NCBI GenBank assembly: GCA_019096065.1
Contig: JAGUCH010000007.1
Coordinates: 3,308,501-3,372,500, forward strand
Direction of reading: 5' to 3'
Length of the DNA stretch: 64,000 nucleotides
Source: Paracyclopina nana
Lineage: Eukaryota; Arthropoda; Copepoda; Cyclopoida; Cyclopettidae
Shown: piece after piece, positions 7,369-64,000 of the stretch
Layout: every line of letters starts with the position of its first letter
Position numbering within the stretch: position 1 is the first letter of the stretch
Translations under genes and position numbers: made by a program
The notes under the pieces: generated by a model
What the model was told of the DNA's origin: nothing
Databases searched by the model: none
What the model saw: only the letters and a program-made list of their open reading frames with translations

Positions 7369-7593
7369 CCCACTTGCGGATTATCATGGGAAGATATGGT
7401 GTGCAGGCGGAAGTTGAAGACAGTTTTGTTTATAAAACCGTGCGACTTAATTATGGGTCACTGGGCCATGAAAATTAAGTTATGTAAAAGAAAATGAATA
7501 ATAAAACATGCAAAGGTATATTAAATTAAGTTTATCTTGGCAAAATCAATTGCCAATCACATTTTTTCTCCACTTAGGGAAGCTTAAAATATC

Positions 7594-11745: not shown

Positions 11746-14700
11746 ATGAGTGCCAACGGACAAGTGACGGCTTCCAGCCTGATCGTAGTGAGCAATCGGC
11801 TGCCTTTTGTCCTTCATAAGGACCCGGATGGCAACCTTCATCGGAAATCTTCGGCCGGCGGACTCGTCACCGCCGTCGCCCCCGTCGTCGTCCAGTCCGG
11901 GGGTAAGTACATGAATAAGCAGATTCCGGTTCGAATCGGTTCGCCGGGCTAAGCTGCAAAAGAAACCGGTTTCCATGCTCTGAGAAGCCGCTTCAAGTCT
12001 CCCCCGTGACTTTCTCCTTTCTCCGTCTTTGCACAGCTTATGTTCTGGAATCTTCTTGAGCATGGAATGTCGAAGCAACAAGTACCCCTTTTTGTTGCCC
12101 AAGCTTTCCTCTCATGCTGATACTTCACCTTGCGCTGTAGCGACAATGTCAAATGAGAACTGGATTCGCTCTTAGCAACAACAATTGTCGTTTTTCCACA
12201 TTCTTCTTGTGACATGCAGTTCGCTTCATGTTTCAGGTCTGTGGGTCGGCTGGGCCGGCACCTACTTGGAAGATGGCGTCCAAATTCCAGAGTCAGATCC
12301 CTCTGACACCACGCCCACCGCTGGCATGAAGTCCAGCCAGGTCATGGCCGTCAATCTCAACGACGAGGAGTACGAGGTAGATGCAAATGGCATTTGGATG
12401 ATGCGCACGATGTAAAAAATTCATGATTTTCCAGTTGTACTACAATGGCTGTTGCAACGCAACTTTCTGGCCCTTGTTCCACTCCATGCCTGACAGGGCC
12501 GTCTTCAACCAGACCTGGTGGGACGCCTATGTCAAAGTGAACAAAAACTTTGCCGACCTCACTCTCTCGGCCCTTAGGCGGGCTACCAAAGAGAATCCGG
12601 ATCAAGTGCCACTGGTGTGGATCCATGACTACCATTTGATGCTGGCTGCCAACACCATCCGTCAGGTGGCGGATGAAGAGAACCTCAGCTGCAAAATTGG
12701 ATTCTTCTTGCATATCCCATTCCCACCGTATGACATTGTCAAAATTTTCCCTTGGGTTGACTCCATTCTCCAGGTACGATTGTCTAACTTCGAATGTAGC
12801 TCATTTTTTATGTAACAAATTTGACATTAAAAGGGCATCTTGGGTTGCGACCTGGTTGGTTTCCACATTGAGGATTACTGCTTGAACTTCATCGATTGCG
12901 TGCAACGCGGCCTCGGGTGTCGTGTGGACCGTAAAAACCTCCTGGCCGATCATGGAGGCCGCACCGTGCGGATTCGTCCTCTGCCCATTGGCATCCCTTT
13001 CGAGAGGTTTGAGGAAATGGCCAAGGCGGCGCCCAAGACGCTCAACGACAAAGTCCAGACCATTCTCGGTGTGGACAGGTTGGACTACACCAAAGGTCTG
13101 GTGAATCGCATGCTCTCCATCGAGAGACTCCTTGAGGAGCACCCAGAGCATCTGGAGAAAGTGATGTTTTTGCAAATTGCTGTCCCATCCAGGACTGACG
13201 TGAAAGAGTACCAAGATCTGAAGGAGGAAATGGACAAGTTGGTCGGCCAGATCAATGGTCGCTTTTCCACGCCGAATTGGTCTCCCATTCGGTACATTTA
13301 TGGCTGCATTGCCCAGTCCGAGTTGGCAGGCTTCTACAGGGATGCCGACGTGGCTCTCGTCACTCCCTTGAGAGATGGCATGAATTTGGTGGCCAAGGAG
13401 TACGTGGCATGCAGGGTGGAAAAGCCCGGAGTGCTTATCTTGTCTCCCTTCGCTGGAGCTGGAGAAATGATGCACGAGGCTTTGTCGGTGAACCCCTACG
13501 AGATGAGCAACGTTGCCAATTTCCTCCATAGGTAGAGCTTATCATTTTATAACCGTTATCACATGACAAATCTGATTTTCTTCTCTGTAGGGCTTTGACG
13601 ATGCCTGAGGATGAGAAAGAAGTACGCATGAAGGCTCTCCGTTATCGAGAACGCCAAATGGACGTCAACTTCTGGATGAAGAGTTTCCTCAAGAGCGTGG
13701 GCACCCTCATCGCCGAGGACGGCGAGGAGACCTTGCCCACGACCATGACACCCGTGACAACCACAGACTTTGACGACTACCTCTCCAAGTATGTCGGTGA
13801 CAAGGCCATTTTGGCCTTGCTCCTCGACTACGATGGCACGTTGTCCCCCATTGCCAAGCATCCGGATTTGGCTGTGCTGCCGCCAGACACCAAAAAGGTA
13901 CTTGAAAGGCTGGCCAATCGGCCTGATGTGTTCGTGGCCATTGTCTCCGGAAGGAGCGTCGAGGATGTCAAGGCCAAGGTGGGCATTGAGAACATCACCT
14001 ATGCTGGCAACCATGGGCTGGAGATTCACCACTCCGACGGCACCAAGTTCATGCATCCCTTGCCACTGTCATCCGCCGAGAAAGTACAAGAGCTCAAGAA
14101 GATCCTGGAAGAGGAGGTTTGCACCGACGGAGCTTGGATCGAGGACAAAGGCCACCTGCTGACCTTCCACTACAGGTAAAAGCCTCTTAAGGTTGGAATT
14201 TCATGTGCTCATTTGAGAATGTTGCAGAAATGTCCCTGACAAGTTGAGGCCACCGATGGTGGAGAAGGCCAAAGATTGCATCATCAAGGCCGGATTCAAG
14301 GTCGGCCTCGCCCACTGTGCTCTGGAGTGTAAGCCCAAGGTGACGTGGGACAAAGGCCGTGCCTCCATCTACATTTTGCGAACGGCCTTCGGAGTGGACT
14401 GGGCGGAGCGAATCCGAATCATCTTTGCTGGTGACGACGTGACCGACGAAGATGCCATTTTAGCCTTGAAGGGCATGGCCTACACGTTCCGGATCGTGAG
14501 CCACCATTTGACCAAGACTGCGGCTGACAAGCGTCTCCCCTCCACAGATTCAGTCTACACTCTCCTCAAATGGGTGGAAAGGCACATGAGTGCAAGGTAA
14601 ACTGATCGCAAATTGGCATTCGTTTTGCTCTGCTCCCAATAAAGATATGCACATACTTGACTTTTCATTGAAAATTAGCTAAGCTGCTGGGCTACTTTAA

Positions 14701-21308: not shown

Positions 21309-21380
21309 GCCGAGTATGGGGATCGAACCCTGATCATCTAGATTAGGAGTCCAACGCTCTACTGACTGAGCTACCAATAC
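21309..21380 (-). tRNA. tRNA-like sequence or tRNA pseudogene, anticodon CCT
   Basis: On the minus strand the A box (TAGCTCAGTCAG) and B box (GGTTCGATCCC) are intact, and the anticodon loop reads CTCCTAA. The overall form resembles a tRNA-Lys or tRNA-Arg. The acceptor strands GTATTGG and ACTCGGC do not pair in register, and only three T-stem pairs form, so it is probably a pseudogene or the head of a tRNA-derived SINE rather than a working tRNA. Confidence 0.5.
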
Positions 21381-28468: not shown

Positions 28469-31400
28469 GGCTTCCTAAACTGGAAACAAAAAAATAAAAT
28501 ATGAGCCTTATACCAAAAGAGATTGGCCTACTTAATTGTCTTCCTTTTTGGGGTAACGCAATAAAAGAAAAGTGGGACCATATTGGACTTTTTCAATTCA
28601 GTATAACTTTATATGTCAACAGTTAGACAATAAGGAAAATGGCAAAGTTTTGAAGAGCATATCTGGATTTTCACATATGCCTACTCCAAAAGCAAAGATT
28701 AGAGAGCATATGGAATATCTGAAAAGTTCTCATGTACATATACTTAGAACTGGAAGCTTTCAATATGGAAAATACTGAGATAAAGTTGGCCAAAAAAGGG
28801 CTTTTTCAGAGATTGGCTCTCAGTATCATTACCAATCATATTCTTAGATGGCCAAGAAGAAAAAATGTGATAATGAAAAAATTGCTGTATTTTCACAATG
28901 TGAGTCTAATGCACTTTTACTTTTGCAGACCATATCAAATGTAGGTCTACTTTACTTTTTAAATCAGCTGCAAAACCTCATGAAAGCTGCAGACTTGCCT
29001 CATTTGCAGGCTGCATTGAAGCTCCAGCAAAAATTGTGAGTAGCCATTTAAACTTTTTATAACGGCCAAGAAGGGGACTCAACTTTTATTTGGCCACATA
29101 GTCTTAAATAAGGCCCCAAAAGTCTCAATTAAGTCAGCCCATCTTTTTTATATGAGAAAAACACATAATTTGCTCTCCATCCTTTTTGGATATTTTTTGA
29201 CACACACATCCCTGACATCATCAGAGTTCTGCAAGGACAAACAAAAGCTAGCAAACTCCAGGGATTTCCTTGGTGCTAGTAAACCTATCTCAACTTCACA
29301 ATGAACTTGATTAAGAGCCTCTATTATACTAGAAAGGCTTTTACTATCATACATGATTAATTCCTCAACAAAAGAGAAAGCAATTGAAACTTCTGTAGAG
29401 GAGATATTCCTCATATTTTTATGGCCAAAATATCCCTTTTTTAAAAGGTGTATAAGCAGAAAATTGAGCTGAGGATGAGCAGAACTTTTCAAGAGTTGTT
29501 TGTGCAATGTGGAAAACTCATTACTTTAAGGCTGCCTCAGTGAAAAAAGAATATCAGCCAAAGGATAGAGAACAAAGGGGAAAATAGAGTTCTACATTTT
29601 TATATCAATAACAGATGTGAATCAATCCTGTGCAACTTTGCCAATTTGCAAAAAAGGATGGTATGATTTGTGCATCAGCATTTTTTGGGGTCTCTTTTTG
29701 CAATCTGAGAAATGGTTTTGCATCAGCAAAAGTGGAAATGTTATTCAAGTTTTTTCTCCTCAACAGATGTCAACTTTTGCATTTTCCTCAAATCTATAAA
29801 GTAAAAAATAGCTAATTTGGGGCATTTGTAGGCATTGAAAGAACTTACACACTTGTCCCTTTTTGCTTAGATTCTGTGATTTTTCAGAAATCAAGATGAT
29901 AAAATGTCAAAAGAGGCAATTTCCTAATTCTGCAGGTGCTAGAAGGCTTCAAAGGAATTTTGAACTTTTGAAACCATTTCTCATGCAAAGATAAGGAAGA
30001 GCAAGAATCCAGCTTTTTAGCAGTACATCAAAATGAGATTTTCAGCTTTTAGCCTATATTTTGTGGTCTTTTGGCCACTTCTAATCTCAGCACTGACCAC
30101 AATGATTACTATGGTAAACCTTCTACAGCTCATCAGCAAAAGTAATGTTGTACGTGCCAAGTAGATAAAGCAGAGCCCAAAGATAGACATGAGCTACCCA
30201 ATAATCATCCTTGATGATGAATCACAGAATGTTTACCTGCTTTTTCATCAGTTATAGTGATATTCCAAGTATTTAAGTCCCTGGGCAAATCTGGATGGTG
30301 TAGTTTAAAGCTTAGAAACCCATATGTCAAATTTCAAATCCAGAAGAAAGCTTCCTTATTTTCTGAGGAAAATGCTTTCTTTTCTTTGAAAAGGTAAAAA
30401 CGTTTTCACTTATTTCACTTGGCTGATAATCACCAAAAAGCTGGTTCTATCCAACTAATGAAAAATATTAAGGCAGCATTAGGCCAACTAATTTATCATA
30501 AATCTTAACCATCTATTAATAATTTAGATACAGTTTAAGAAACAGAATAGAATTGTGAAATTGAGCGGATAAAAAGCTGACGAGCTAATCCAAAGTTTGC
30601 TCAAGTTGGGGAACTTTAGAGGGTAGCTTTTACAATTTGGGAATAAAAGAGCTAATGTTAACCATGGGATTCCGAGCAACTTTTGGCAAAAAATGAAATA
30701 GCTACACAACACAATAACAATAAACGATAAAGAAGGAGCACATTGCTACTTCGAAGGAGAGCTATTTTCAGGAGCAGCAAAATGGGCCTCATTTTTGTAA
30801 TGACGCAACAATTTCCAATGATTGTATTCTTCTTTAGGAAGAACAAGCAGTTGGAAATTGAGCAGGATTCAGGGGCTTCAATATGATGAGAAAAGTAGAA
30901 GTTTAATATCTGCAATCTTCACAAATTGCAAGAGAAGATTTGGCAAGCCTCTCTTTTGTGGTAGAAATGGACATGGTGTGCGTTTCCTTCTGAAAATGCC
31001 CTTCTGTCCTTTTTATCAGAAATCTTTTGCCAAGAAAAAACAAAAGCCTTTTCACAGCTCTGCCTGCGTTTTACTGGGCTGAGATGGAAAGGCAAGTAGT
31101 AATTTGTCTTTATTCCTATCATTCATCACACAAATTAAGCCAATATCAGTCGATACAATAGGCTGGTTCTTTTATTCAGAGCATTAATGACTTTTCCTAC
31201 ATTCATTAATTCAGCCTTAAACTATGACACATTTCTCTCCACAAGGTAAAGGGATATGCACAAAGAGGGCTAGCTTGTTTGCCTTTGTTTTGGAGGCAGA
31301 TTTTATTTTTTTAAATTTGTCAGAGCAAAAAACAGAGCAAAAAAAGCAGGCTCATTATTATTTTCATGGCTGTATTCACTCATGAGAGCTCTGAAAGCCA

Positions 31401-33359
31401 AAAGTAATGAGCTGCCTTAGCACACAAGAAAAATATCCCCAATATTTGAATACTTTGACATAAAGAAACTTCGGTTAACTAAATTAGAGTTAAACAATTT
31501 TTTCATTCAAGGAAATAGAGGTACGTGTTTCCTTCTTTTAAAAACTTCTTGGAATGCTACAAACCCAATTAGTTGTTCAACAACCAAAACAAGAAAGCTA
31601 CAAAATATTGGTTAGGTGGAGATTTAAGATCCTTTTTATGCATAACCCCTTGTCAAATCATACCCACACATTTGAATTTTGTACATGCTTTAAATGGCCA
31701 TGTAACAATCTAATGAGAATTAACATTCTGAAAAATTGGCTTCAGAGCTTTCAAAGCATCAAAAAAATCTTTCTCAGCATGAGAATATTATTTTAACTTG
31801 AAAAGCTGAGGATATACAAGCATTTCAATAACTTGAAGAATATCAATACATTTCAATTTACAATATGCGGATTGATGTCAATTCTATGTTGACAAAACTT
31901 ACGCCCAGTTTTTTCGGAAAAAGCTTTAAAAGTTATATTGGTGATTCTGAAGAGCAGCGCGGTGATCGACTAATGTTCCGTCCTGCGAACTTCTCTTTTG
32001 CGGCCTCCAAGAGCGACCTCCGAGGTCGGTGATGACCTTCAACGCAGGAGGAGAGGCGAACAAAGTACTGAATGACTCAAATTTCAAGATTTCCACAGAC
32101 AAAATGTGAAATGCACACTATAATGCATTTATGAGATTTTAAGTAATCCATCCAGGAAATGAAACTTGACTTAACTTCTGATGCAATGATTTTTTGGAAA
32201 ATTAGCTTTCTCAGCTTTCAAAATTGAGCTAAAGAAACTTTAAAATTGAAAGAAAGCAAACAATTTAAGAGTACATCTTTTTACCACACTTTTTTTGCCA
32301 TAAACTTTTAGGCTAAGTTATTTTGATCTAGGAATCTTGTTTATATCTTGCTAGATCCATCAAGAAGAGCTTTCCAACTTCTTAAAGCACTTTTGGTGCA
32401 ACAATGCACTCTGGAAAAACATGCTTGCATAAAAAGCCTCAATTTCCTGAAAGATATTATATCCATTTGTCTCCTCCGAAAACTCCTCAAAAAGTAATGA
32501 TTTTTTCAGGAAATTGGACAAGTCTTTCATTTAAAGCAACTTCAGCCAAATGAAAACGGAAATTAACTTAGACGGATCATTCAGAGTTTTTAGAGTCTTC
32601 CAATTCAAAACTATTTCCTGGGGAAAATTAAATTGTTAAATCGGATGAGGATGAAATGCATTTCTAGAGAAAACGGACAGCAAAATTATTTGCAGAGCTT
32701 ACCCAACATGAGTTGACGTTTGATTCAAATTCGGATTTCCACAGAAGAATTTCGATTTTCCAATCATGTTTACGATTTTATCACAGGCTTCTCAGCAAAC
32801 TGAAAAACTTTAAACTACACGCTCAGCATAAATTATGGTGATGTTACACTTGGAATTTTTAGCAGACTTGAAAATTAACAAGAATTGCACAGAAAGTCTA
32901 GTGGGGAAGTAGGTAAAAAGGTTACAGAATTTAAGGCGCACTTAATTCCTCATGATTGACTTTTTAAAACATTTGTTTTACTTATGTGTCATAATGGAAG
33001 TTGCTTTAGGCACAAAAAATTATGATTTTGTTTATATTTAATCTGAAGATATGATTTTTTGGTCAAAACATCTCATATGCAGTTTTAATAAAACAGCTCG
33101 GGTCTATTTATCGATCAGTGTATGTTATGTCGCTCACCTTCTCTAAACCAAAAATCTATGGAGAAAAGCAGATTAAAGAACTCGTCAAAGTGAAGAGCGA
33201 AAAGATTTCAGTTGACGCCGAGCAGAAACTCGTCAAATCGCTGGGGTGAAAACAAAAGTGTAAACAAAGAGCAGCTGAGCTAGTGGATCTTTCCGTGACT
33301 GGCAACATTTTCTCGATCATAATTTGGCCTTGATCCAAAATCCAGTCGAGTGAGCAATC
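28469..33359. other. Long intergenic region
   Basis: Nearly 5 kb of AT-rich sequence. I find no recognisable protein. A compact GC-rich structured block stands out at 31950-32065. The end next to 33360 is the CUL2 promoter side. A minus-strand open frame at 29148-29507 has no ATG start and no recognisable similarity. Confidence 0.5.
31981..32049. ncRNA. Candidate structured RNA
   Basis: Outer stem TCCTGCG (31981-31987) pairs perfectly with CGCAGGA (32043-32049). Inside it CGACCT (32014-32019) pairs with AGGTCG (32023-32028) around a 3-nt loop. A box C-like TGATGA follows at 32030, and CTGA lies shortly after the outer stem. The block is GC-rich inside very AT-rich DNA. A box C/D snoRNA or another small nuclear RNA is possible, but no family is recognised and strand is undetermined. 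Confidence 0.3.
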
Positions 33360-36133
<2,774 letters not shown>

Positions 36134-36184
36134 CCAGTGTGGTTGACACTCCAGCTAATTATGTGCCTCATATTCTAAATTATA

Positions 36185-36190
36185 AATAAA
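36185..36190 (+). terminator. CUL2 polyadenylation signal
   Basis: AATAAA about 50 nt downstream of the CUL2 stop codon. Confidence 0.7.
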
Positions 36191-37161
36191 GTGAAGTGTT
36201 GGATCCTAAAATGCCTTGGAATGTCAGAATGAGTCATCATCATAGGTTCCACTTCTTCCCAGAAATGGAAATTGAGCTCAGTCACCAAACATGATTCGAG
36301 TTGTGCAAAAGCTTTCTGTTCTCCCTTTGAATGGCCACAAAGAGGCAACGAGGTAAAGGTTTAATTGCAAATATTCGCACTATGTGCAATTCGAGACTTT
36401 TGAGAATGTCTTTTTGCTGTAGCTGCTATTCTTACACGTTTGCATGTTTCTAAAAATCAAGGTCAAGCATTTCATAGGTAGCTTTCACCAATTAAGCCAT
36501 TGTGGGTAAGTGAAAGTGGCAAAATTGGCTATTGATGAATTTCACACATCATTAGTTGACAGTAATTCGAACAACATTGTTTGAACTTCTGCAGCAGAAA
36601 TCGAATCTACTATGGCTAACTTTTGCGGCTTTAAAGGACGCTCAACTTGCTGGGAGACAGCCGAACCTTGCTTAAGCAATGTTCAATTATATATTTGCGT
36701 ATTTTTTCAGATTTCTCTACAAATAAAATTCACGCCAATGTATGGCATAATCAATAAAAAATATTATAGGATATTACAGGTAATACCTGAAAGATAATGA
36801 ATTTGGAAATTCTTGGTCATGCAATTTGTGCCAGCAAGCTGTGCACCGGTATTCACATGATGATGTTCATGCACACAGAAGAAAAAAAGAAAGCATTGCA
36901 AGAAAGCAGCTTCTAGAACTAATTCATGGCTATTTTTACACGCGTCATAGTGATGTGTGATTCTTATGCTCTGCAGTGTGCAAAAAAGCACCTTTTATGA
37001 TAGAAATGTCGATAGTTCAGCATATCTACTTCGAGGGTGATTTAGAAAGCTGTTGAATTACAAACGGAGCATTTTTTGTCCCTCCCCTAATAAACGCAGT
37101 TTTTTGTGCCTTCTAATAATGATTTTAAGATTCCAGTCAGCTTCAACCTTTCAATAGAGAG

Positions 37162-37253
37162 AGCTGCTAGCTGCCGGTGTCTTGTGAAAAAGAAAGCCTC
37201 ACACTAAGCAGCTTTCACGTAGAGCATCATAGGTGCTCTAAAAGCTAGCAGCT
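37162..37253. repeat. Nested inverted repeat
   Basis: AGCTGCTAGCT (37162-37172) and AGCTAGCAGCT (37243-37253) are perfect complements. Within the loop TAGAGCA (37220-37226) pairs with TGCTCTA (37234-37240). This would fold as a large hairpin with a small inner hairpin. It may be a short foldback element or a structured RNA. Confidence 0.5.
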
Positions 37254-37655
37254 AGCCTATACTTAGGGCCGTTGAACAGCATCTACGCCCAGATTATGAT
37301 CTACAAGCCAAAAATCGTCCATGCTTCAAGAAACGTCCAATAGATGGCTTGTGATCATATATTATTCATTAAATTAATTAAAGTGTGATATAAGTTATCA
37401 TTTCATTATAGTAACTTTTATTATTAATTGAATTCAATACGTTTCCAAAAAGTTTCTTTGCTAAAATTTTAATTTTTGGCTGGAATTGCATACATTTATT
37501 TATTAATTCTTTATTATTATTTTTGGATTTCACTTTAGAGACTAATTCTTGAGATGGGAAAAATTCAGGCTGAAATTTGAGTAGACCTGAATTAGTCGAT
37601 GGTAATGAGCGAGCCCAAGGTCTGATGATGTGCCCTCGCCGGATTGAGCGAGCTC

Positions 37656-37782
37656 GTGTCTTAGGTCCTCGGCGGCCTCTCTTTTCTCAAGTCTTGAGCA
37701 GGTGGAAGACTTGGACTGACTGATCGATCTTGTTAGGGTGGTTGAGGTGTTCGGCCAAGTGAGAGGTGTCTTCCTAAGACAC
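37656..37782. repeat. Inverted repeat in a GC-richer block
   Basis: GTGTCTTAGG (37656-37665) is the perfect complement of CCTAAGACAC (37773-37782), with weaker pairing on both sides. A second GTGTCTT directly before the right arm forms a competing 7-bp hairpin with it. The surrounding 200 bp differ in composition from the AT-rich neighbours, and no reading frame is recognised. Confidence 0.5.
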
Positions 37783-38786
37783 TGCTCAAATCTTAGCCCA
37801 TCTCAGAAAAAAGAAAATTATTGCCGCACGTGTGATCAAGACACCCTCATCTGCAAAAAGGGCAATTTCATCTCCTGCTAAAAAGTGTAAGCAAAAATTA
37901 CTCTGATAAAAAGCCTATTTTTAAAAAAGGTTGAGAAGATGGCGTCGTGTTGCTTCAGGGTCCAGCTGATGCATCAGCTGACCATGTGCATGATATAGAA
38001 AGCACAATAGCTGCAAAGGCTTAACTTGATTGACTTTAATGGCTGCATAATTTTCAAATGTCATGAACAATTGCTGAGTGAAGGCCAATCTTGATTGTTT
38101 TAGCTCAGTAGCTTTGCTCAGCAAAGGGAAAGTTGTTGGCCATTTTTTGAAAAATATTTCAAGCTCTAGCTTGACCTAGCTACTTGTCTTAGACAAGAAA
38201 GTTTCCACGTGATGAGGGATTGTAGCTGATGCTGCTGATGTTGGGCCACTCTCTTTATATGCAGGAAAACCTAACTTGACCAATTTCCTTTTGAAAAATG
38301 TGTGCACCTAGCTCGACTTGAATTTGTGAAAACTATCACTAGTGAAAATGTACACTACTACATCTACAAGCAAGCACATAAATCAGGATTGTTCTTTTGC
38401 CTTTACCTTGAGCAATTCATGATTTTAGCCAGTGTTTTATGACTTTTGCTGGTTTGAAAGTAAAAATGCCAGGAATTGAGTGAAATGAGCAAAATGTGCT
38501 ATGTCTTTAAGTACCTTAATTATATAGCATTTTTTAATTTCATGTCTATATTCTAATTTCAATTCCATTTAGTTGAACTTTGCAGTATTAGCACTATTGA
38601 ACATTGAGAGTACAACATCTTTGCAGTATTATAGAAAGCCCCAGCTTTTTCAACTGATGTGAATGGCCCACAGCTAAAAGTGTAGTATAAGCCCAGAAAT
38701 GTCCATTCTTGCCTAGTTGTAAACTTATGCTCTCAACTTGGACTTATCAATTCCCTATTAATTGCAGCCCCCCTTTTGGCACCAAA

Positions 38787-41700
38787 ATGGGAACCACGAC
38801 AATAGAGACCATCACGGTCACCAGACCGATGAAGGTAAGCTACACTTCTCATTTTCTTGATTTGCAATAAAAAAGAGAAAGCCTCAATCTGAGCTCAGCT
38901 AGAGAGCTTTTAGGGGAGGCTTTTTACATAGTACTACATACTATAGGGTATACACTGTGAAAAGTAGAAAATTGTGAAGGTCACATTTCCACACTCACCA
39001 TCATTATTATGAACACCCTGCCTAGCTCTTACCATTTTGGTACAAATGTAGGGCTTTCCCCTTTTGCTTCAGTGGGAAAAATCCCTGCAGCCAGTTGGAA
39101 TTCTGATTGTCTGCAGACCCAATGTCCATTTTTCAAATGGTTCTGACATCACGAAAAGGCAGCTTTTTGACTGCATAAAACCACCCAACAAAATGTGTGA
39201 TGCTCCGGTAAGAGGCTCATTTTTTAAATTCTTTTATTCACATCTTTTATGAAGAGCAATTTGACCCACAATCGGAGACGCAAGCTGAAAATTCAGTTCC
39301 ATCAGAGTCAGAGGGACAAAATTTGATGCATTCCTCCAACTTTCCACCTGCACAGTAATTTCCAGATCCTTCACTTTGAACCTTCAAAGGTGCAGCAGGT
39401 GGAGATTTAGGTGCTCCACTTGCAGGTGGATTTTTAGATGGGCTAACATTAAGTGCTGCACCTGCAGGTGCAGTATTAGGTCGACTTCCCCTAGGTGCAG
39501 CACCTCCTGGAAAGTCAGGTGTGATAAGGTGGGCAGGTGCAGGTGCAATGTTGGGGTGTTTCTTGCGCAGGGCATCTAGATTGTTGGTGGGGTAATCCTT
39601 GCCTGGGGTTCCTGGTATTTTCCCCTGGGCAATTTCTTCCTGAAAATCAGCTGATGCTTTTGTGGCCCTTTGAGCCTGGTTGTTGCCCTTCTGCCTTCCA
39701 TTGTTGCTATTGTTGCTCTTATTTGCACCTGAGCTGGCTGCACCTGATGCACCTGAGCCTCCACATTGGCGGGGATTTATTTTACACAAAATATTCACAG
39801 AGTAAATGGGATAATCTTTGCCTGGCTCGCCTGGGATATTTTTCCTATGAAATTGATAGTTAAATAAATAATTATGCTTTATTGTAAATTTTACCTTAGG
39901 CCTTCGAGCTCGTCCTGAGCCTGAATTGCTAAGGCCAAAAAGGCCAACAAAAATGAAGTCAAAGTCACTAAATTAGCCTAAAAGTCAAATAATGATGCAA
40001 GCTTATCTATAAGTTAAATTGGACTTTTTACCATATTTAGTCTACTTCTTACTCCCACTGCTCAAAGGCAACTCAGGAGGGAACAGTACAAAAAATGCTT
40101 TGTTACACAAAGTTGCATGGGTCAGTTTTGAAATATGGTGCCAAAACAAAGAAAAATGCACTTATTGCTGATAAGTGCCAATTATAAAGTGATAATTATT
40201 AGGTAAGCATAGACTCGAAGAAAAAGGGAAGAAAATCATGTTGCATGTCATTTTTGGTGCCAATTATCCCAGTGCATTCACACCTGTGTAATTGTTGTTT
40301 ATATGGTTAGGCAGAAAAACAGGAAAAACAGGTCAGATTTATAATTGGCCCTTGGCTTCAAAGCTGATTAAAAATAGGCTCAAAACAAAGCAAAACCGAT
40401 GATTTTTAGCTATTACAGCTACAGGAGAGAGAATATTGTGGTTAAAAAATCACTTTGACAGCTGTCATAATGCAAATCTTTTTGGATGCATCCAGGCTGA
40501 TTTTGTTTCAGAAATTTTGTACTTTTATTTTCCTTTTACTCTGATTACAGCTTGAACAATCCAATTTGTCAGCAGTCTTCTTATACAATACATGAAAGTA
40601 CAACTCAATCAGTAAAGTTATGAAAAAAGGATGCTTTGTCTTTGACAAACTTTTTTCTACTCTTATGAGGGTCTCTGATTACGCTGAATTTTCCAATATT
40701 AGATTGCCTAGGCTGAAATTGAGCCTGAAAATCCGGAAGAGCAAGCTGTTCCCCAACAAGGACCATTTGTGGGCCTAAAAAGAGCAAAATTAACTATAAA
40801 AACAATTTTTTGAGAAGATAAAAATTACTTGATGATGCAACTTCCTCTGTGACATTTGCAGCCACTTCCACAAAATGGGCAGGATTTTTGGGCACACACT
40901 TTTCCGCCAGCAAAAATGGCACTCGGGACATTTCTCGATGCACCACCGCTCAATGAGAACTGGGCTGAGCTCTCACTAGAGCCAAACAAAATGGCTGATA
41001 TAAACAAAACCTAAACAAACAAACCAGTTACTTCACAACTCCATTTCAAGCTGTAAAAATGGATACAATAGCAAAACTGAAGACAGTTGAAGATTTCATG
41101 GTGTCAGTGTTGTTGCAAGTTTCACCCTTGAAGCTGAAATGAGGCTCTATTTTTGTAAAACGCAAATAAACTGGTTTGGAGGGATGTCACTAAGATATTT
41201 CAGGCCTGATAAGACAATAAGAATCCCATGGAGAATTCCATAGTTTTTTCAAAACACAAAGAGTACATTTTTCCACTTGGCAACTCAAGAGATATGTAGG
41301 TATAGGAATGTGCCCATTTGAATAAAAGCTATTTCAAGGCTTTTAGCAAATTCCTTGAGAAAATCTGTTTTCTCTCTTTTTCAGGTGATTGCCTTTACAT
41401 GCTTGTCCATGACTGTTATAGTAATGGTGGCAGTGGTTGGCTGCTCAGACTGGGTCCAATCTGATGGCTGGAGGGAAGGCCTTTTCACCCAGTGCATCAA
41501 GCCTGGAGCTCCCACTCCTCTTCCATTTGGAGCTGATCCAGTTCCTGGATGCAGGAGGGCTCACAGCGCTGGCTATGTGCGAGCTTCAGCAGCTCTGGTC
41601 ATCATTTGCTTCCTCACTGACTTTTTTGGCACCCTTTTGACTGGCCTTGGACTCAGGAGTACTGACCCCAACAAAAAGTACAAGTACTACAGGGTGGCAA

Positions 41701-44700
41701 TCTACTCCCTGGGACTTGCAGGTAAATTCAAAACCTAAAAAAACATTTTAATTTTCAGTATAGTAAAGTTGATTTCACATAGTTGCTGCTCTCCTGCTGA
41801 CATTGATCATCTACCCTACCTCTTTCACCAAGGATATGGAAAATGGTGAGCATATCTTTTTTCCCCCGTATGCAAAAGCACTTTTGTTGATATCGCGGAT
41901 TCAGCGGGCAGATTCCACGCAGTTGTTTACTTTGGTTTTGCGTTTTGCGGATTTTTTTTCACAATTCCACGTGGCACTGTAAGTTGCCTTGAAAAATACA
42001 TGTGCATTTAGACCCACGCCTTGATGGAGGCCGCGTCCTCCATGCCCAAAACTTTGGATCCCATGACTATGACAAGGATGGCATCCTCGATCATTTGGAC
42101 AATGATGATGACAATGATGGCAAGTCTGACGAGGAAGACAACGATGATGATAATGATGGTATTCCGGATGACATCGATACGGATGATGACAATGACGGCA
42201 TTCCGGATGACCAAGATGGAGATCCGGATGACTTGGATGGAGATGGCATCATTGACAGTGAAGATAATGATGATGATAATGATGGTGTTGATGACAGCAT
42301 TGACACTGATGACGACAATGATGGCATACCTGACAACCTTGACAATGACGATGACAATGATGGTATCCCTGATGACCTTGACAAGGACTCTGATGGGGAT
42401 GGAATCATTGATTCCCAAGACAATGATGATGATGGAGATGGAATCTCTGATGCGGATGAGGCCAAAGCTGACGCCGATGGCGATGGCGTTCCTGACAGCA
42501 TTGACAATGATGATGACAATGACGGTATTCCTGATTCTGAGGATTCTCTTGATTCAGATGGTGATGGCGTTCCCGATGATGAGGATTCTGATGACGATGG
42601 TGATGGCATCCCGGACAACGTTGACAATGATGATGACAATGATGGCATCCCTGATGACAAGGACCTTTCTGGTACAACACCCAATTCCATATGCATTGCT
42701 TGAACCCCGGATATGATGCACGGAGATGAGTTTCATGTGCAAATTAACCAACTTCAAAACTCCTTTATTACTTTTCAGTGATCATTTTTACCTTAAAAAA
42801 TAGTGTGCATTGAAGTTCAGAGCTAAATTAACTTTCTAACAATTGTTGTAGTATTTTGAGCATTTTGAATTTCCCGCCCTTTTCGCCCAACCGCTTAACA
42901 GCCAACAATAACAATAATGAGCAACCAGTTTGCCATTGATAAAAGCTATAAGCAAAGATAGGTGTGCTTTTATGACTTAACAGACTGATTTTTTTGGCCA
43001 GGGCTTCGTTTGATACATCGATTCGGGTTTGATTTTTCAATTTTGGGCCCAAACCCCTTGTCACCATGTGGTTTGATGGGGTTTCAAGTTTGGCGGCCCC
43101 CAGGATGCTCTAAGGGGGTCAAATGGGGCCTGGTCTTATCAGCTGATTGAAACAAGGCAAATCTTTGCGGGGGTGTGGCTGGAGGAGTGGAGGGCAGCCA
43201 AAATCAACTATGCCCCAATTCTTGAGGCCCCTGGGGGGTGTCCAGATGTCAGGGGAAAAAAGTTGGAAAAAGTCCTCGGCAAGGCCAAAAAAAGCCAAAA
43301 TTTGAGTTTTTGGACCCGACTTTGAGGCTGATTATCTCCAAAGGCCACGGATGGATTTTGGATTTTTTTGCTCCAAATGGCAGATAAAGATCCAAATTAG
43401 TACCAAGAAAAAATTTGGGAGGGTGTTATTCCTCGTTTGTCCGCTACGAGCTCTCAAAGTTGGACAAAATTCACTTTTTCACAGTAGTAACAAAATGGCT
43501 ACTTTTCTTCTGTCAAAAATTCTTGATTGGTCACAGTGGCCAAGTTGATGGCTGGAGTGTGGGCCATTTGGTCTGGAGGAGACCTCTAGGGTCTCAGTGG
43601 TTGGTATCAGGTCCAACTTCCTTGGTAGGGCTAGGCCAGGCCCAGCCAGGAGCCTTGGAGCCGAGCCATCGCGACGGCCATTTCGATTCAGTGGCAATTC
43701 CAAGGGCCTTGCTGCCAATTCTGGGGACAGATTGTTGACCATTTGGCCTTGATCACTCCTTTAGGGTCCCAACAGATGATTTCAAGGCTAACAGTCAAGG
43801 TACAGCAAGGTCAGCTTGATCCAGGGGGCTCGGAGTTCACTTGTGGCATTGGTGATTTGGCTACAGAAAGTCTTCGAGGGCCTCGATGGCCAAGTTCTCT
43901 GATTAGGTGAGGATTTTTTGAGCTGTATCACTCCTTTGGCATCCCATGAGATGATTTCAAGTTCAACTTTGATGGTGATCATCAGCTGACTGCTTCCAGG
44001 GCTACCAGAGCTTATTTGCCAACTCAGCTGCCAATGGTTCAATGAAAGGCAGCATGGATCACAGCCAAGACCAAGGCTGGAGAGTGGATTTTTTAGGCTG
44101 AATCAACTCAAATGGAAGCAAGGAGATGAAAGACAGTCTATTTTTCATGGTGTTATGCTCCCTTCTTCAACCAGGAGTGCCAAAGTTTCGTATGAACAAA
44201 AATCGAAAATGGCTTCAATAAAGAGCTCCATTGATTGCAGCCAAGATGAGCAATGGCAAGTCACTTTTTTGCCCCAGCTCATCTCAGTGGGTGCCAAAGA
44301 GAATTTAGAAGGTGCAAACTGTCAGGTGTTATGCGATTTGCTGCGCGCGAGCCCATTTTCATCCGCGAGTAGCAGCATATAGTATAATAGTGGCCATCAC
44401 TCCATAAAACTTTGCCCAGTCCAGAATCATGAAAAATGGAGAACACCCGAAATTTTTCACATTCTACAGCCTCTTTGGCACCCACTGAGGTGATCTAGGC
44501 CAAAAAAGTCAAGTTCCATCCGTGAATTTTTGAGCGCGAGGCGTTTTCCGTTTGCGAGTAGCAGTTGTTATTATAAGAGCTCTGGCTGTCACAGGAAAGT
44601 TTGCGCATCCAGAACCATGAAAGGTGCGCAACACCTGACAGTTTGCACCTTCTAAATTCTCTTTGGCACCCACTGAGATGAGCTGGGGCAAAAAAGTGAC

Positions 44701-46241
44701 TTGCCATTGCTCATCTTGGCTGCAATCAAAGGAGCTCTTTATTGAAGCCATTTTCGATTTTTGTTCATACGAAACTTTGGCACTCCTGGTTGAAGAAGGG
44801 AGCATATCACCATGAAAAATAGACTGTCTTTCATCTCCTTGCATCCATTTGAGTTGATTCAGCCTAAAAAATCCACTTTCCAGCCTTGGTCTTGGCTGTG
44901 ATCCATGCTGCCTTTCATTGAACCATTGGCAGCTGAGCTGGCAAATAAGCTCTGGTAGCCCTGGAAGCAGTCAGCTGATGATCACCATCAAAGTTGAACT
45001 TGAAATCATCTCTTGGGATGTCAAAGGAGTGATACAGCTCAAAAAATCCTCACTTGATCCGAGAACTTGGCCATCGAGACCCTCGAAGACTTTCTGTAGC
45101 CAAATCACCAATGCCACAAGTGAACTCCAAGCCCCCTGGATCAAGCTGGCCTTGCTGTACCTTGACTGTTAGCCTTGAAATCATCTGCTGGGACCCTGAA
45201 GGAGTGATCAAGGACAAATGGCTAACAATCTGTCCCCAGAATTGGCAGCAAGGCCCTTGGAATTGCCACTGAATCGAAATGGCCGTCGCGATGGCTCGGC
45301 TCCAAGGCTCCTGGCTGGGCCTGGCCTAGCCCTACCAAGGAAGTTGGACCTGATACCAACCACTGAGACCCTAGAGGTGTCCTCCAGACCAAATGGCCCA
45401 CACTCCAGCCATCAACTTGGCCACTGTGACCAATCGAGAATTTTTGACAGAAGAAAAGTAGCCATTTTGTTACTACTGTGAAAAAGTGAATTTTGTCCAA
45501 CTTTGAGAGCTCATAGCGGACAAACGAGGAATAACACCCTCCCAAATTTTTTCTTGGTACTAATTTGGATCTTTATCTGCCATTTGGAGCAAAAAAATCC
45601 AAAATCCATCCGTGGCCTTTGGAGATAATCGGCCTCAAAGTTGGGTCCGAAAACGCAAATTTTGGCTTTTTTTGGCCTTGCCGAGGACTTTTTCCAACTT
45701 TTTTCCCCTGACATCTGGACACCCCCCAGGGGCCTCAAGAATTGGGGCATAGTTGATTTTGGCTGCCCTCCACTCCTCCAGCCACGCCCCCGCAAAGATT
45801 TGCCTTGTTTCGATCAGCTGATAAGACCAGCCCCCATTTGACCCCCTTAGAGCATCCTGGGGGCCGCCAAACTTGAAACCCCATCAAACCACATGGTGAC
45901 AAGGGGTTTGGGCCCAAAATTGAAAAATCAAACCCGAATCGATGTATCAAACGAAGCCCTGGCCAAAAAAATCAGTCTGTTAAAAGTGCTCAAAATCCTC
46001 AATGATTTCATTGTTTGATTTCCAATTGAATTTTCGAAGAGGGTTTTCTCATCTGTCGACATTTGTTTTTGCAGGTAACAGGAGGGAATGGGAATTTGGA
46101 TTCGGTTTTGGAGGAGCTTGGTGCTGTCTGATTTTGATGTTTGCTTCCTTGGTTCTTTTGATTTGCGACCGCGAATCTGAGGAGATTTTCTACAAGGAGA
46201 GGGAAGTTGAGGATGGCGAAGAGGAGAAGGAGGAGGCTTAA
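38787..46241 (+). CDS. TMEM47/claudin-like four-pass membrane protein with TSP3-like repeats in loop 2, 424 aa
   Basis: Exons: 38787-38834, 41385-41721, 41783-41845, 42012-42671 and 46075-46241. They sum to 1275 nt in frame. TM1 is VIAFTCLSMTVIVMVAVVGC. The first loop has SDWV and GLFTQC, TM2 is AALVIICFLTDFFGTLLTG, TM3 runs from YYRVAIYSLGLA into LIIYPTSF, and TM4 follows WEFGFGFGGAWCC. The tail is acidic. YYRVA, YPTSF and W-x-F-G-F-G-x-x-W match TMEM47 (181 aa). Exon 4 (220 codons, phase 1 at both ends) encodes about 15 D-x-D-x-D-G repeats and joins in frame between TM3 and TM4. Skipping it leaves a normal-sized 204-aa protein. The exon 4 donor (TCTG|GTACAA) is weak; without splicing there the protein ends at 42703. 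Intron 1 holds two nested minus-strand genes, and intron 4 a 3-kb transposon. Confidence 0.75.
39247..40034 (-). CDS. Secreted low-complexity Gly/Ser/Pro/Ala-rich protein, 227 aa, nested
   Basis: Exons 40034-40032 (the start codon alone), 39977-39895 and 39844-39247 (684 nt, in frame). The single-codon first exon is unusual but has a proper donor (ATG|GTAAAA). A signal peptide follows (ANLVTLTSFLLAFLALAIQA). The mature protein contains the motif IPG-x-PGKDYP twice (near residues 32 and 107), a Gly/Ser/Ala/Asn-rich stretch and a Pro/Ala-rich stretch. The C-terminus holds six Cys (YCAGGKLEECIKFCPS, then CVSDCGSNC). No family is recognised; it could be a matrix, silk-like or adhesive protein. 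It lies in intron 1 of the TMEM47-like gene on the opposite strand. Confidence 0.65.
40708..41099 (-). CDS. Small secreted cysteine-rich peptide, 93 aa, nested
   Basis: Exons 41099-41067, 41010-40829 and 40774-40708 (282 nt, in frame). A signal peptide (MKSSTVFSFAIVLFISAILF) ends near SSESSA. The mature part has a Ser/Gly-rich linker and then eight Cys in about 35 residues (VCAQKSCPFCGSGCKCHRG, then SC, PCW and AC). The spacing suggests a small disulfide-rich fold, but I cannot name the family. A host-defence or signalling role is only a guess. It is the second minus-strand gene inside intron 1 of the TMEM47-like gene, head-to-tail with the gene at 39247-40034. Confidence 0.65.
42012..42671 (+). 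repeat. Exon of tandem TSP3-like calcium-binding repeats
   Basis: A 660-nt exon built from tandem copies of the D-x-D-x-D-G-I-P-D unit, about 15 in number, the pattern of thrombospondin type 3 calcium-binding repeats. It has phase 1 at both ends, typical of exons moved by shuffling. The acceptor is ATTTAG|AC. The same bases make the stop codon (TAG at 42009-42011) of a possible alternative short exon starting at 41905. Confidence 0.85.
42981..45979. mobile_element. Complete 3-kb foldback transposon flanked by TTAA
   Basis: A 2999-bp element with long inverted arms: left 42981 to about 44352, right about 44626 to 45979. The ends are CAGACTGATTTTTTTGGCC and its complement. TTAA flanks both ends (42977-42980 and 45980-45983), as in piggyBac and Kolobok insertions. 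The centre (44353-44625) holds two diverged direct copies of a module of about 185 bp containing GCGAGTAGCAG and CCAGAA-CATGAAA. No transposase is encoded, so it is non-autonomous. It sits in the last intron of the TMEM47-like gene. The copy at 1-1371 is one arm of a second element. Confidence 0.85.
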
Positions 46242-47406
46242 GTAAAGTTCATAGCTAGAGCAACAATTGAACTGCACTTCTTCACCCAAGGGTGGACAAC
46301 ACCTAAACAGTGACTTGAACTCAGCTAGGGAGAACTGCCAGAAAAAATGTCGTACAATTAATTCAAGCCTAAATAAAGTTTTTTCCTTCTATCCCTACCT
46401 CAAACATCACCAAAGAAATTCAAGTTCAACAAGCCCATGGGAGAAAAAGAAAGTTCAAAAGTGAATGTTAGCAAAAACAAGAAAAAATTCTCTCTCAAGT
46501 GTCTTCGAGCTCCATTCCATTTCAACTACTTTTTGGCTGCCAAATTCAAAATTCTGAAGAAAAAAACTACTATTAGCACAAATTCGATCCATCCAATTCT
46601 CAGTATTGTAGCAAATCATCATGAATTGTTCCATTCTGCTGGTCTTGTTCATTTAGGGAAAAAACCTACCATGTAAAAAAACCTGTTGTGAATAACTGTA
46701 TAAAAAATTTGTGACCTCCCACCCATTTGTTTTTTGATAAAACAAATCAACCTTGTCCAATGTTCCAATGTTTTGCTTGAAAGCTACATTTGTGATGATA
46801 TGATGATTGCCCCCCTTCAAAAATATACAAGTTACTTAAATACAGTGAGCGTTTTGATGTCAAGCAAAAAAAGAGAGTCAATTGTGCTTCAATTTTTTTT
46901 CTTTTTGGAAAATACTTTTTCACCAATGTAATAGCAAAAAAAAAAATACTAGTTTCGCATTATTTTCGCAATATTTACCATCAACACCAGGAAAAAGTTG
47001 TTCAATAAGAAAAAAAAAGTGTTCTACAAGCATGTCACTTCACAGCCATTTTTATTACCTTTCATTTTTTTCTTCTCTTTGAAATTTGTTGTACCTTCTA
47101 CCATCACCCTCTTGCCCAATGTTTTAGATCTCTATCCCTCACTCTCTTATTTAATTGCAAAATCCCAATTAATAATGGCTTGCAAAAATGATGATGCAAA
47201 AATAACCACCACCATCCTTGATCAAAGTTGGCCTTCAAATCCTTGTTTGGTTTTTTAAAAATGGAGCACCCATTTGCTGTCTTCTTACATGTTACACTAT
47301 TCTCATCAATGTTGGTCTTGTGTATCCTTATGTTCACATGTTGTCTCTTTTCTAATAAAATCCGACAAAATATTTTTTTCTTAAACACTGATTTTATCCT
47401 CTCTTG
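46242..47406. other. 3' flank of TMEM47-like gene; intergenic
   Basis: An AATAAA occurs near 46373, about 130 nt after the TMEM47-like stop codon. The rest is AT-rich with homopolymer runs, and no gene is recognised before the minus-strand transporter stop at 47407. Confidence 0.5.
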
Positions 47407-51107: not shown

Positions 51108-51509
51108 GATGATTTTAGGAGTCAGCTGATTGCTTTCTTGAGAAAGCTTTCTAATACGTGTACATCAACTTTTGCATCACTTCAATGAATAAGGTCCAGT
51201 TTTGTAATAATAGTACTATTAATTTCACTTAAGCCTAACATCAGTATCCAAATTGATAATTTTTAACCTGAACACATAGAGCCATTTTTTCAGAACTTCC
51301 AAGAAAAGTGGAATGTTTGCCAATAAGCTTCTTCTTCATCTTTCTGAGTTGATATATATTTATATATTTGGCTTTTTTTTACATAAAGCTCAGTATTTTA
51401 AGGTGTAAGATTAGGTTTTTAAATACCAAGAGTGGTACGTGTTGCCTGCTTATAAAATAAACACTTATTGTAGCAGAGGAACAGTTTTGGCCGCACTCAC
51501 GATTTCACC

Positions 51510-52391
51510 ATGGAGGGAGACAGCCATTATATGAGTTTGGTATTATTTCACACTGTCACAATATTAGCAACATTTCAAGCTTTCATGTTATTTACTTTGG
51601 TTTGGCATTACTTGAACAAAAAGCCTTTTGGCATGCAAACTTCACTTGATCAAGTAATAAAGGATCTTTTGGCATCAACATTCATTACTTCAAGCTTATC
51701 GTCAATCTTGCAATTTAATTGGATCCCATTCTACTTCCTACCTGAATCACTTATTGCCTACTTTTTCATCATGCTAATGATTGCACATTCCATGTTTATG
51801 AATCTGATATGTATCTCCTTGCTGAGATACCTATACATTTTTCATTCGGCATGGATCTTAGAGGTAAATGATGCCTTGATTGTTGGTGCAACACGCCTAA
51901 CAATTTTGGTCAGTTCATTAACATTAGCAACTATTGAAGTCACAGCCAATGACTATAGACAGAGCAAGCTATACTCCTACCTCACTCGCACTCATAATGA
52001 CAGTCCTATTGCAATTCCTGCTCCAACTATAAGTTTCATAGCGTGTGTTGCAGTAGTAGTTGTTTTCACAATTATGATACGAATTGAATTGAGCAAGATC
52101 CTTTGCAAAGAGAAACCTCCAGATTTTGGATACTCTTTTTGGACCATGAGAACAATTGGAGTTCTTTTGTTGATCAGTGGGCTGCTTGCTGTATTGTGGC
52201 TCTCTATTGACATTTCTAACAGCAGCAATGAAAAAGAGAAACGATTACAGATACATGCTATGTCCACAGTGATTCTACTGAACCTAATACCAGCCATAAT
52301 GATCATGAGACACCCACACATGTCAAAATTTGTAGCAAAAGCTATGAAAAAGAAGCTCAAATTCAGAGTTTTTAGGGTGCATCCAAATTAG
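51510..52391 (+). CDS. Seven-pass membrane protein, possible orphan receptor, 293 aa
   Basis: A single exon beginning MEGDSHYMSLVLFHTVTIL. Seven hydrophobic segments are visible. After the third comes LLRYLYIFHSAW, in the place of the DRY region of class A receptors, but NPxxY is missing from TM7 (VILLNLIPAIMIM). The tail is very basic. It is about half identical by eye to the gene at 52851-53702 over its whole length, so the pair arose by tandem duplication. It is probably a lineage-specific chemosensory-like or orphan GPCR. I do not recognise a named family. Confidence 0.75.
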   Translation: MEGDSHYMSLVLFHTVTILATFQAFMLFTLVWHYLNKKPFGMQTSLDQVIKDLLASTFITSSLSSILQFNWIPFYFLPESLIAYFFIMLMIAHSMFMNLICISLLRYLYIFHSAWILEVNDALIVGATRLTILVSSLTLATIEVTANDYRQSKLYSYLTRTHNDSPIAIPAPTISFIACVAVVVVFTIMIRIELSKILCKEKPPDFGYSFWTMRTIGVLLLISGLLAVLWLSIDISNSSNEKEKRLQIHAMSTVILLNLIPAIMIMRHPHMSKFVAKAMKKKLKFRVFRVHPN

Positions 52392-52850
52392 CAATACATT
52401 GTTATTGGAACTCTGCACTGAAAAATATTTCCTTGTTAATATCAATCCTATATAACTAAGAGTTGTGTAATAAATACATTTGACCCTGTAGAGAATTCCT
52501 CCTTTCTTTCTCAAAGATTTATGCTGTTGGATGAAAAACCTTCAAAAAGTCAGGCCTAATCTCTGTACATAACCTATCATTTCTTCATTATGAACTGATA
52601 GTGACATGACATAAATGTAAGACTGGGCTTTCGCGGCAATTAGAGGCAATTTTAGTTCATTCAAGCAATTTGCAACCAGCTAGATTGATTACAGCGCAAT
52701 TGAAACCTTTGATTATATTTAGATCATCAAAAAGAAAGCCATTTTGCCAAGGAGAGTCTGAGCCATTCTTCAACTCAAGTAGCTCATTAGAGTAAAAATG
52801 TTTAAATATCAACAAAATTAAGGTCCAGCATCATCAAAGACATTTTAGCT

Positions 52851-53702
52851 ATGGAGGGAGCAAGTGAGTTTGTGATGCTGCTTTTTCACACAGTCACAAT
52901 TGTTGCTACAATAATAGCTTTTATGCTATTTTCTTTGGTTTGGCATTATTTGAGCAAGAAGCCTTTTGGCATGCAAACTCCACTCGATCAAGTCATCAAG
53001 GATCTCTTGGTGGTAACATTGACAGACTCAACTCTAGCATCACTGAGACAACTGGAGTGGATACCATTCTACTTATGGCCAGATTCTCTGATGGCCTATT
53101 TCTTCACTGAGTTAGTGATAGCGCATACCATGTTTTTGTTTTTGATATGCACAGCCTTGCTGAGATATGCGTACATTTTTCATTCCGTATGGATCTCAGA
53201 GGTGAATGATGCCTTGATCGTGAGCACAACCAGGGTAGCAATCCTCGTCATTTCATTCATGCTGGCATCTATTGAAGTCACAGCCAATGATTATCGGCAA
53301 ACCAAGTTATTCTCCTACTTAACTCGCACTCCAATAGAAAATCCAATCGTAGTTCCTGCACCAACCATAAGTTTCATGGTTTGTACATCTATTATAGTTG
53401 TTTTTTCAGTTATGATCAGGATTGAGGTGAGCAAGTTTCATGGAAAGGAAAAGCTGCCAGACTTTGGATACTCTTTCTGGACCATGAGAAGCATTGTGGT
53501 TCTTTTGGTCATCACAGGACTGCTTGCACTCTTGTGGCTCTCAGATGGATTGATCAGCAAGGAGAGTGAGGGCAAGAAACGATTACAGATTCATTCCATA
53601 TCCACAGTTATTATCTTGAATTTATTGCCAGCAGTAATGATAATGAGACATCCACAAATGTCATCTTTTGTTGTTAAATACATCACCATGTTTTTCCGTT
53701 GA
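52851..53702 (+). CDS. Seven-pass membrane protein, paralog of the 51.5-kb gene, 283 aa
   Basis: A single exon beginning MEGASEFVMLLFHTVTIV. It shares KKPFGMQTPLDQVIKDLL, LLRYAYIFHSVWISEVNDAL, IEVTANDYRQ and DFGYSFWTMR with its neighbour. Seven hydrophobic helices are present. The tail is shorter and less basic. The same remarks on function apply: a receptor-like topology without clear class A hallmarks beyond the RY motif after TM3. Confidence 0.75.
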   Translation: MEGASEFVMLLFHTVTIVATIIAFMLFSLVWHYLSKKPFGMQTPLDQVIKDLLVVTLTDSTLASLRQLEWIPFYLWPDSLMAYFFTELVIAHTMFLFLICTALLRYAYIFHSVWISEVNDALIVSTTRVAILVISFMLASIEVTANDYRQTKLFSYLTRTPIENPIVVPAPTISFMVCTSIIVVFSVMIRIEVSKFHGKEKLPDFGYSFWTMRSIVVLLVITGLLALLWLSDGLISKESEGKKRLQIHSISTVIILNLLPAVMIMRHPQMSSFVVKYITMFFR

Positions 53703-63411: not shown

Positions 63412-64000
63412 TCAGGATCCTGTATTGGCTGCCAAAGCCTTGAGAGTATCTTCATCCATCCATGGCATGGTGGATCCGGATCCTTGACTGGATCCTCTTC
63501 CAGACCTGAGTGTACAAGATCCATTGTCCTCATGGTTGGACTCTGAGTCATTGCCATCCATTGAGCTAGATCCTCCAGACCTGACTATTAGGAGCTCGAT
63601 TTTGTCACCAGCTGCTGCAATGAGAGGAACAGCCAAGCAGCAATCAAAGTCTTGAGTCCTGGTCTCATTGATCTGCAAGATCTTGTCCATTGGCTTGAGC
63701 AAGTTGACAGCACTGTCAGCTGGCCCTCCAGGCCTGACTCTGGCCACATAGATGCCTTTGTCAAAGAGGCCATCACTGACACTGAATCCAAAATCATCAT
63801 ACACATTGTCCTTGAACAGAGTGATCTTGTGGACTTCAGTGGGTATTGGCTGGCTTCCATTCCTGCAAGATCTAACCCCAGCCAAAAAAGGTTGTTAATG
63901 GTGTACCCTCAAGTTCCGTAACTATTTTACTGACCTTAAAGATGGTGATGACATTAATGAGACTATTGGAGGACCTCTGGACAAGCTACTTGAACAACTG
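63412..64000 (-). CDS. GRIP: GRIP-like multi-PDZ scaffold protein, C-terminal part (continues beyond window)
   Basis: Two exons are visible: 64000-63935 (partial) and 63871-63412, in phase. The last exon encodes one PDZ domain: [20 protein letters not shown], then [39 protein letters not shown] and [17 protein letters not shown]. It matches PDZ7 of GRIP1/2 closely, including [11 protein letters not shown](V/I)YV and the TR(T/D)-DFDCCL-VPLIA pattern. A Ser/Gly-rich tail ends [12 protein letters not shown] proteins are cytosolic multi-PDZ scaffolds at synapses and junctions; PDZ7 binds GRASP1 in vertebrates. The other PDZ domains should lie to the right of the window. Confidence 0.8.

Follow-up and report, generated by a model that had tools for sequence, protein, structure and literature searches.

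Can a small tetraspan protein of the claudin superfamily carry a large thrombospondin type 3 (TSP3)-like repeat domain in its second extracellular loop? The question is raised by a gene of the copepod Paracyclopina nana, located on the plus strand at positions 38787–46241 of a 64,000-nucleotide (nt) stretch of contig JAGUCH010000007.1 (assembly GCA_019096065.1, positions 3,308,501 to 3,372,500). This stretch is referred to below as the window, and coordinates are those of the window unless a contig is named. On the basis of the sequence, we favor with moderate confidence the explanation that the locus encodes a fused protein, in which a claudin-superfamily gene includes a symmetric phase 1–1 exon encoding a cysteine-free TSP3-type domain.

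A claudin-type gene with a proposed symmetric repeat exon

The gene model comprises five coding exons separated by GT-AG introns of 2550, 61, 166, and 3403 nt. The exons and associated elements are as follows (TM, transmembrane segment; a slash marks the exon end).

38787–38834, plus strand: coding exon 1, start codon and N-terminus; donor AAG/GTAAGC
41385–41721, plus strand: coding exon 2, TM1, loop 1 (W..GLF..C..C), TM2, and the start of TM3
41783–41845, plus strand: coding exon 3, last part of TM3 and beginning of loop 2; phase 1 at its 3′ end
42012–42671, plus strand: exon 4, acidic and TSP3-like, 660 nt (220 codons), entered and left in phase 1; proposed loop-2 cassette
42701–42703, plus strand: in-frame stop, reached when the exon-4 donor is unused (three-TM form)
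42981–45979, no strand assigned: foldback DNA transposon, 2999 bp, occupying most of intron 4, with TTAA on both sides
46075–46241, plus strand: last coding exon 5, TM4 and acidic tail; starts in phase 1; stop codon 46239–46241
46372–46377, plus strand: AATAAA, 3′ of the stop codon

Joining all five exons yields 1275 nt, encoding 424 amino acids and a stop codon, while omission of exon 4 yields a skip form of 615 nt and 204 amino acids. These lengths, together with the boundaries and phases of the TM3, repeat, and TM4 exons, confirm those proposed in the initial annotation, which had been made from the sequence alone.

Using the Pfam profile PMP22_Claudin (PF00822), we obtained a score of 35.8 bits for the 204-residue form, above the cut-off of 26.7 bits, with the match covering profile positions 9–158 of 161. 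Because this match extends through the part encoded by exon 5, TM4 can be assigned to the claudin-type gene. The 424-residue form scored 22.4 bits, below the cut-off, with a match ending at position 132; at the sequence level, exon 4 thus splits the match to the family at a point between TM3 and TM4. Hydropathy analysis (window 19) of the 424-residue form identified four hydrophobic segments, at residues 17–35, 81–101 (two overlapping windows), 120–138, and 381–399, with the insert falling after the third segment and before the fourth, in agreement with its earlier assignment between TM3 and TM4. By analogy with the topology of the family, this position is predicted to correspond to extracellular loop 2. 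In claudins, loop 1 carries a W-GLW-C-C motif; inspection by eye revealed W, GLF where GLW is expected, C, and C. The match to claudins of solved structure was weak (claudin-15, E 0.24).

The skip form thus shares its 204-residue size, its four hydrophobic segments, and its Pfam match with the PMP22/claudin superfamily, which includes TMEM47/TM4SF10 and C. elegans VAB-9, and the sequence supports its membership, as originally proposed. The narrower label TMEM47/VAB-9-like comes solely from the initial annotation and is retained as a candidate. Known TMEM47/claudin members have a short second loop, whereas exon 4 can add a 220-residue acidic domain at this place.

The repeat exon carries its own coding signal

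The 220 residues encoded by exon 4 include 95 Asp and 6 Glu (101 acidic residues), 25 Gly, and 18 Asn, with 7 Lys and Arg combined and no Cys. The exon contains 18 overlapping DxDxDG motifs, with a spacing of 13 residues in 8 of the 17 motif intervals, and the repeat frame is open over 41993–42700.

To score substitutions, 14 non-overlapping repeat units were each compared with their consensus. Single-base codon changes were synonymous in 42 cases and non-synonymous in 16, a synonymous fraction of 0.72; in 35 further codons more than one base had changed. In 2000 simulations the synonymous fraction averaged 0.20 and reached at most 0.39, under a simple model of independent changes, an assumption that repeats spread by duplication violate. 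One antisense frame shows a near-equal synonymous excess (pairwise counts of 344 to 88 versus 340 to 82). Of 101 GAN codons, 95 have T or C as their third base, whereas four-fold sites do so 51 times in 67 (p = 0.001), a bias that favors the plus strand. Together, the synonymous excess and the third-position bias indicate that the exon encodes aspartate-rich repeats on the plus strand, and its own statistics provide strong evidence that it is truly protein-coding.

Relation to thrombospondins and other repeat proteins

A phmmer search against sequences of solved structures returned COMP and thrombospondins (E 3e-4 to 5.3e-4). Consistently, a Foldseek search with an alignment-based model of the insert ranked thrombospondins first (2rhp, E 1.1e-9; 1yo8, 6.1e-8; COMP, 4.0e-5). 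These top matches and the repeated Dx[DN]xDG motif support the description of the insert as a TSP3-like repeat domain. The acidic domain would probably bind calcium. Unlike thrombospondins and COMP, the insert lacks cysteines and the thrombospondin C-terminal domain, and it sits in a multi-pass membrane protein. Bacterial and archaeal proteins of the TSP3_bac type, found at no fewer than 78 loci in the genome contigs searched, share the DxDxDG repeats, and the periplasmic part of OmpA (5wtl) was a further Foldseek match (E 8.6e-3). The copepod gene differs from TSP3_bac-type proteins in having introns and a claudin part, and the resemblance to them is inflated by low complexity. Ilborin (PMC8864356), an EF-hand protein for which no TM domains are predicted, was considered and dropped.

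We then surveyed the genome (92 Mb, 10 contigs) for similar repeats. The TSP_3 profile matched at 11 places, 10 of them above the cut-off, forming two clusters on contigs C2 and C3, where the thrombospondin open frames contain 7 to 9 cysteines. Two thrombospondin-type genes on these separate contigs are highly similar to each other (C2:5763374–5764117 and C3:5308912–5309653). A different gene, L002, lies at and around 16886688–16886867 on contig C1. Its three exons, separated by two phase-1 introns, encode a 119-residue protein with a signal-peptide-like start and cysteine-free DxDxDG repeats. L002 therefore resembles the insert in its cysteine-free repeat part, its DxDxDG motifs, and its phase-1 introns, but differs from the claudin-type gene in its signal-peptide-like start and in having no further membrane part. 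A composition-adjusted BLASTP comparison of the insert with the L002 protein was non-significant (E 0.41), so a common origin of the two is not established. The presence of such a gene nonetheless means that possible donor exons exist in the same genome.

Does the repeat exon belong to the claudin-type mRNA?

Several features favor its inclusion: the exon lies on the same strand as the claudin-type exons, has phase 1 at both ends and fitting GT and AG sites, and is followed by a single non-transposon A[AT]TAAA, which is located 3′ of the TM4 exon. Within 42601–46800 the motif occurs at 46372 and, inside the transposon, at 44217, and nowhere else. The choice of splice sites is narrow. Two AGs are present in 41985–42030, at 42011 and 42029; being 18 nt apart, they give the same entry phase. 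In 42640–42705 a single GT occurs, at 42672. Phase agreement at both exon ends is expected by chance in about 1 of 9 cases, and taken alone offers modest support.

A number of observations weigh against the fused protein. The insert scored 10.4 bits with Pfam TSP_3 (PF02412), and the exon alone scored 17.2 bits with TSP3_bac (PF18884), each against a cut-off of 25, and the fold matches have low TM-scores. The TSP3-like character claimed in the initial annotation is supported by the solved-sequence and fold matches, and qualified by the missed profile cut-offs, the absence of cysteines, and these low scores. The skip form is the better PMP22_Claudin match. The splice sites of the repeat exon appear weaker than those of its neighbors: its acceptor has the lowest pyrimidine fraction of the four (0.38, compared with 0.50, 0.69, and 0.94), a comparison based on just four introns, and its donor, CTG/GTACAA, lacks the G at position +5 found in the common donor consensus. 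Finally, L002 provides a stand-alone gene of the same repeat type with phase-1 introns. Weak-looking splice sites fit either a regulated cassette or a rarely used exon, and in combination with the symmetric phases they are compatible with a cassette exon.

L002 and the weak-looking sites also fit a rival reading, in which exon 4 belongs to a separate nested or overlapping gene. That gene would encode a secreted cysteine-free repeat protein, would use a start exon of its own, and would never have exon 4 spliced to the TM4 exon. We consider such a gene unlikely. No A[AT]TAAA lies between the repeat exon and the transposon, and a scan of the plus strand from 30000 to 42000 for a signal-peptide-like first exon followed by a GT[AG]NG phase-1 donor was negative. 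The latter is weak evidence: the GT[AG]NG pattern recovers the C1 control and has 6 occurrences across the entire plus strand, hence about 1 expected in the scanned interval, the strictest donor pattern fails to recover the control, and a first exon that is non-coding, far away, or atypical would escape the scan. When any GT donor was allowed, four starting ATGs met the more stringent hydropathy threshold; one of these falls within exon 2 of the claudin-type gene.

Somewhat less likely still is an unused captured exon, skipped in nearly all mRNA, so that the gene would yield just the 204-residue protein. The weak-looking sites and the higher family score of the skip form (35.8 versus 22.4 bits) are in line with this, whereas the 220 stop-free codons with synonymous excess and third-position bias argue against it, although some of the coding constraint may predate capture. 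Least probable is an alternative terminal exon, in which 41845 is joined to 42012 and the frame, open to 42700, is read past the weak-looking donor to the stop at 42701–42703, giving a three-TM protein with extracellular C-terminal repeats; the AATAAA at 44217 that could serve it lies at a distance of 1.5 kb, within the young transposon, and loss of TM4 would be expected to disrupt the four-helix fold.

A young foldback transposon in intron 4

The arms of the transposon, at 42977–44330 and 44630–45983 including the flanking TTAA, are 98% complementary over 1354 nt. A 424-base piece of the arm gave 40 scored matches among 119 candidates in the genome, the window's own arms included, with identities of 96–100%, and the element is young. 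At each of the five ends inspected (three in the window, one at locus L024, and one at L025), TTAA stands directly before a terminal CAGACTG; besides the element in intron 4, the window has one such transposon end at 1371. Subtracting the element and one TTAA leaves an intron 4 of 400 nt, and the repeat exon may thus until recently have been flanked by two short introns. The long hairpin that the transposon would form in the pre-mRNA may now influence splicing of the repeat exon.

Other features of the window

Open frames on the minus strand span 39250–41010 within intron 1. They contain repeated PG(E/T)PGKDYP motifs at 39250–39972, which gave no Pfam match, and a hydrophobic Cys-rich stretch near 40825–41010. 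Elsewhere, open frames encode a THAP/DDE transposase (7588–9240), a family-20 glycosyltransferase (12831–13532), a cullin (34901–35470), and, on the minus strand, a PDZ protein (63415–63894). A tandem pair of similar hydrophobic open frames, each about 300 residues long (51474–52388 and 52806–53699), possibly represents a lineage-specific receptor family; a Pfam scan of the first gave no match. Three tRNA matches exceed the Rfam gathering score, at 5560–5641 and 6169–6250 on the plus strand, with equal scores, and at 21313–21380 on the minus strand. In the genome, a TTAGG 25-mer has 5073 forward and 4205 reverse matches and its reversed control has 0; TTAGG is the usual telomere repeat of arthropods, and its abundance points to an arthropod genome.

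Proposed function and significance

If exon 4 is included, the result would be a tetraspan protein whose extracellular loop 2, the part linking TM3 to TM4, carries the repeat domain. From the residue counts, the loop would be very acidic, with a net charge of about −94 without calcium. In the presence of extracellular calcium, it could take up numerous ions and become rigid, forming a compact rod or coil that might space, sheathe, or bridge the cell–cell cleft. Such a loop might confer calcium-responsive adhesion. Skipping of the exon would produce an ordinary 204-residue member of the family. The exon itself may have originated by exon shuffling. We tentatively propose, as a possibility well short of an even chance, that regulated inclusion of the exon generates a claudin-type protein with a calcium-loaded TSP3-like rod, such that the spacing or stickiness of the cleft would depend jointly on extracellular calcium and on splicing.

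Loops of claudin-family proteins determine the adhesion and permeability of junctions. A claudin-like TMEM47 of a mosquito has an apical position in midgut cells (PMC12892943). In the open-licence literature, with subscription papers mostly outside the search, we found no report joining claudin or PMP22_Claudin with thrombospondin type 3 repeats. If the proposed structure is correct, a single symmetric exon would switch a large calcium-binding module into loop 2, uniting a matrix-type repeat with a junction protein. The gene would then provide an example in which exon shuffling into a loop of a multi-pass membrane protein can be tested, and a natural fusion with which to ask how much added mass a claudin loop tolerates.
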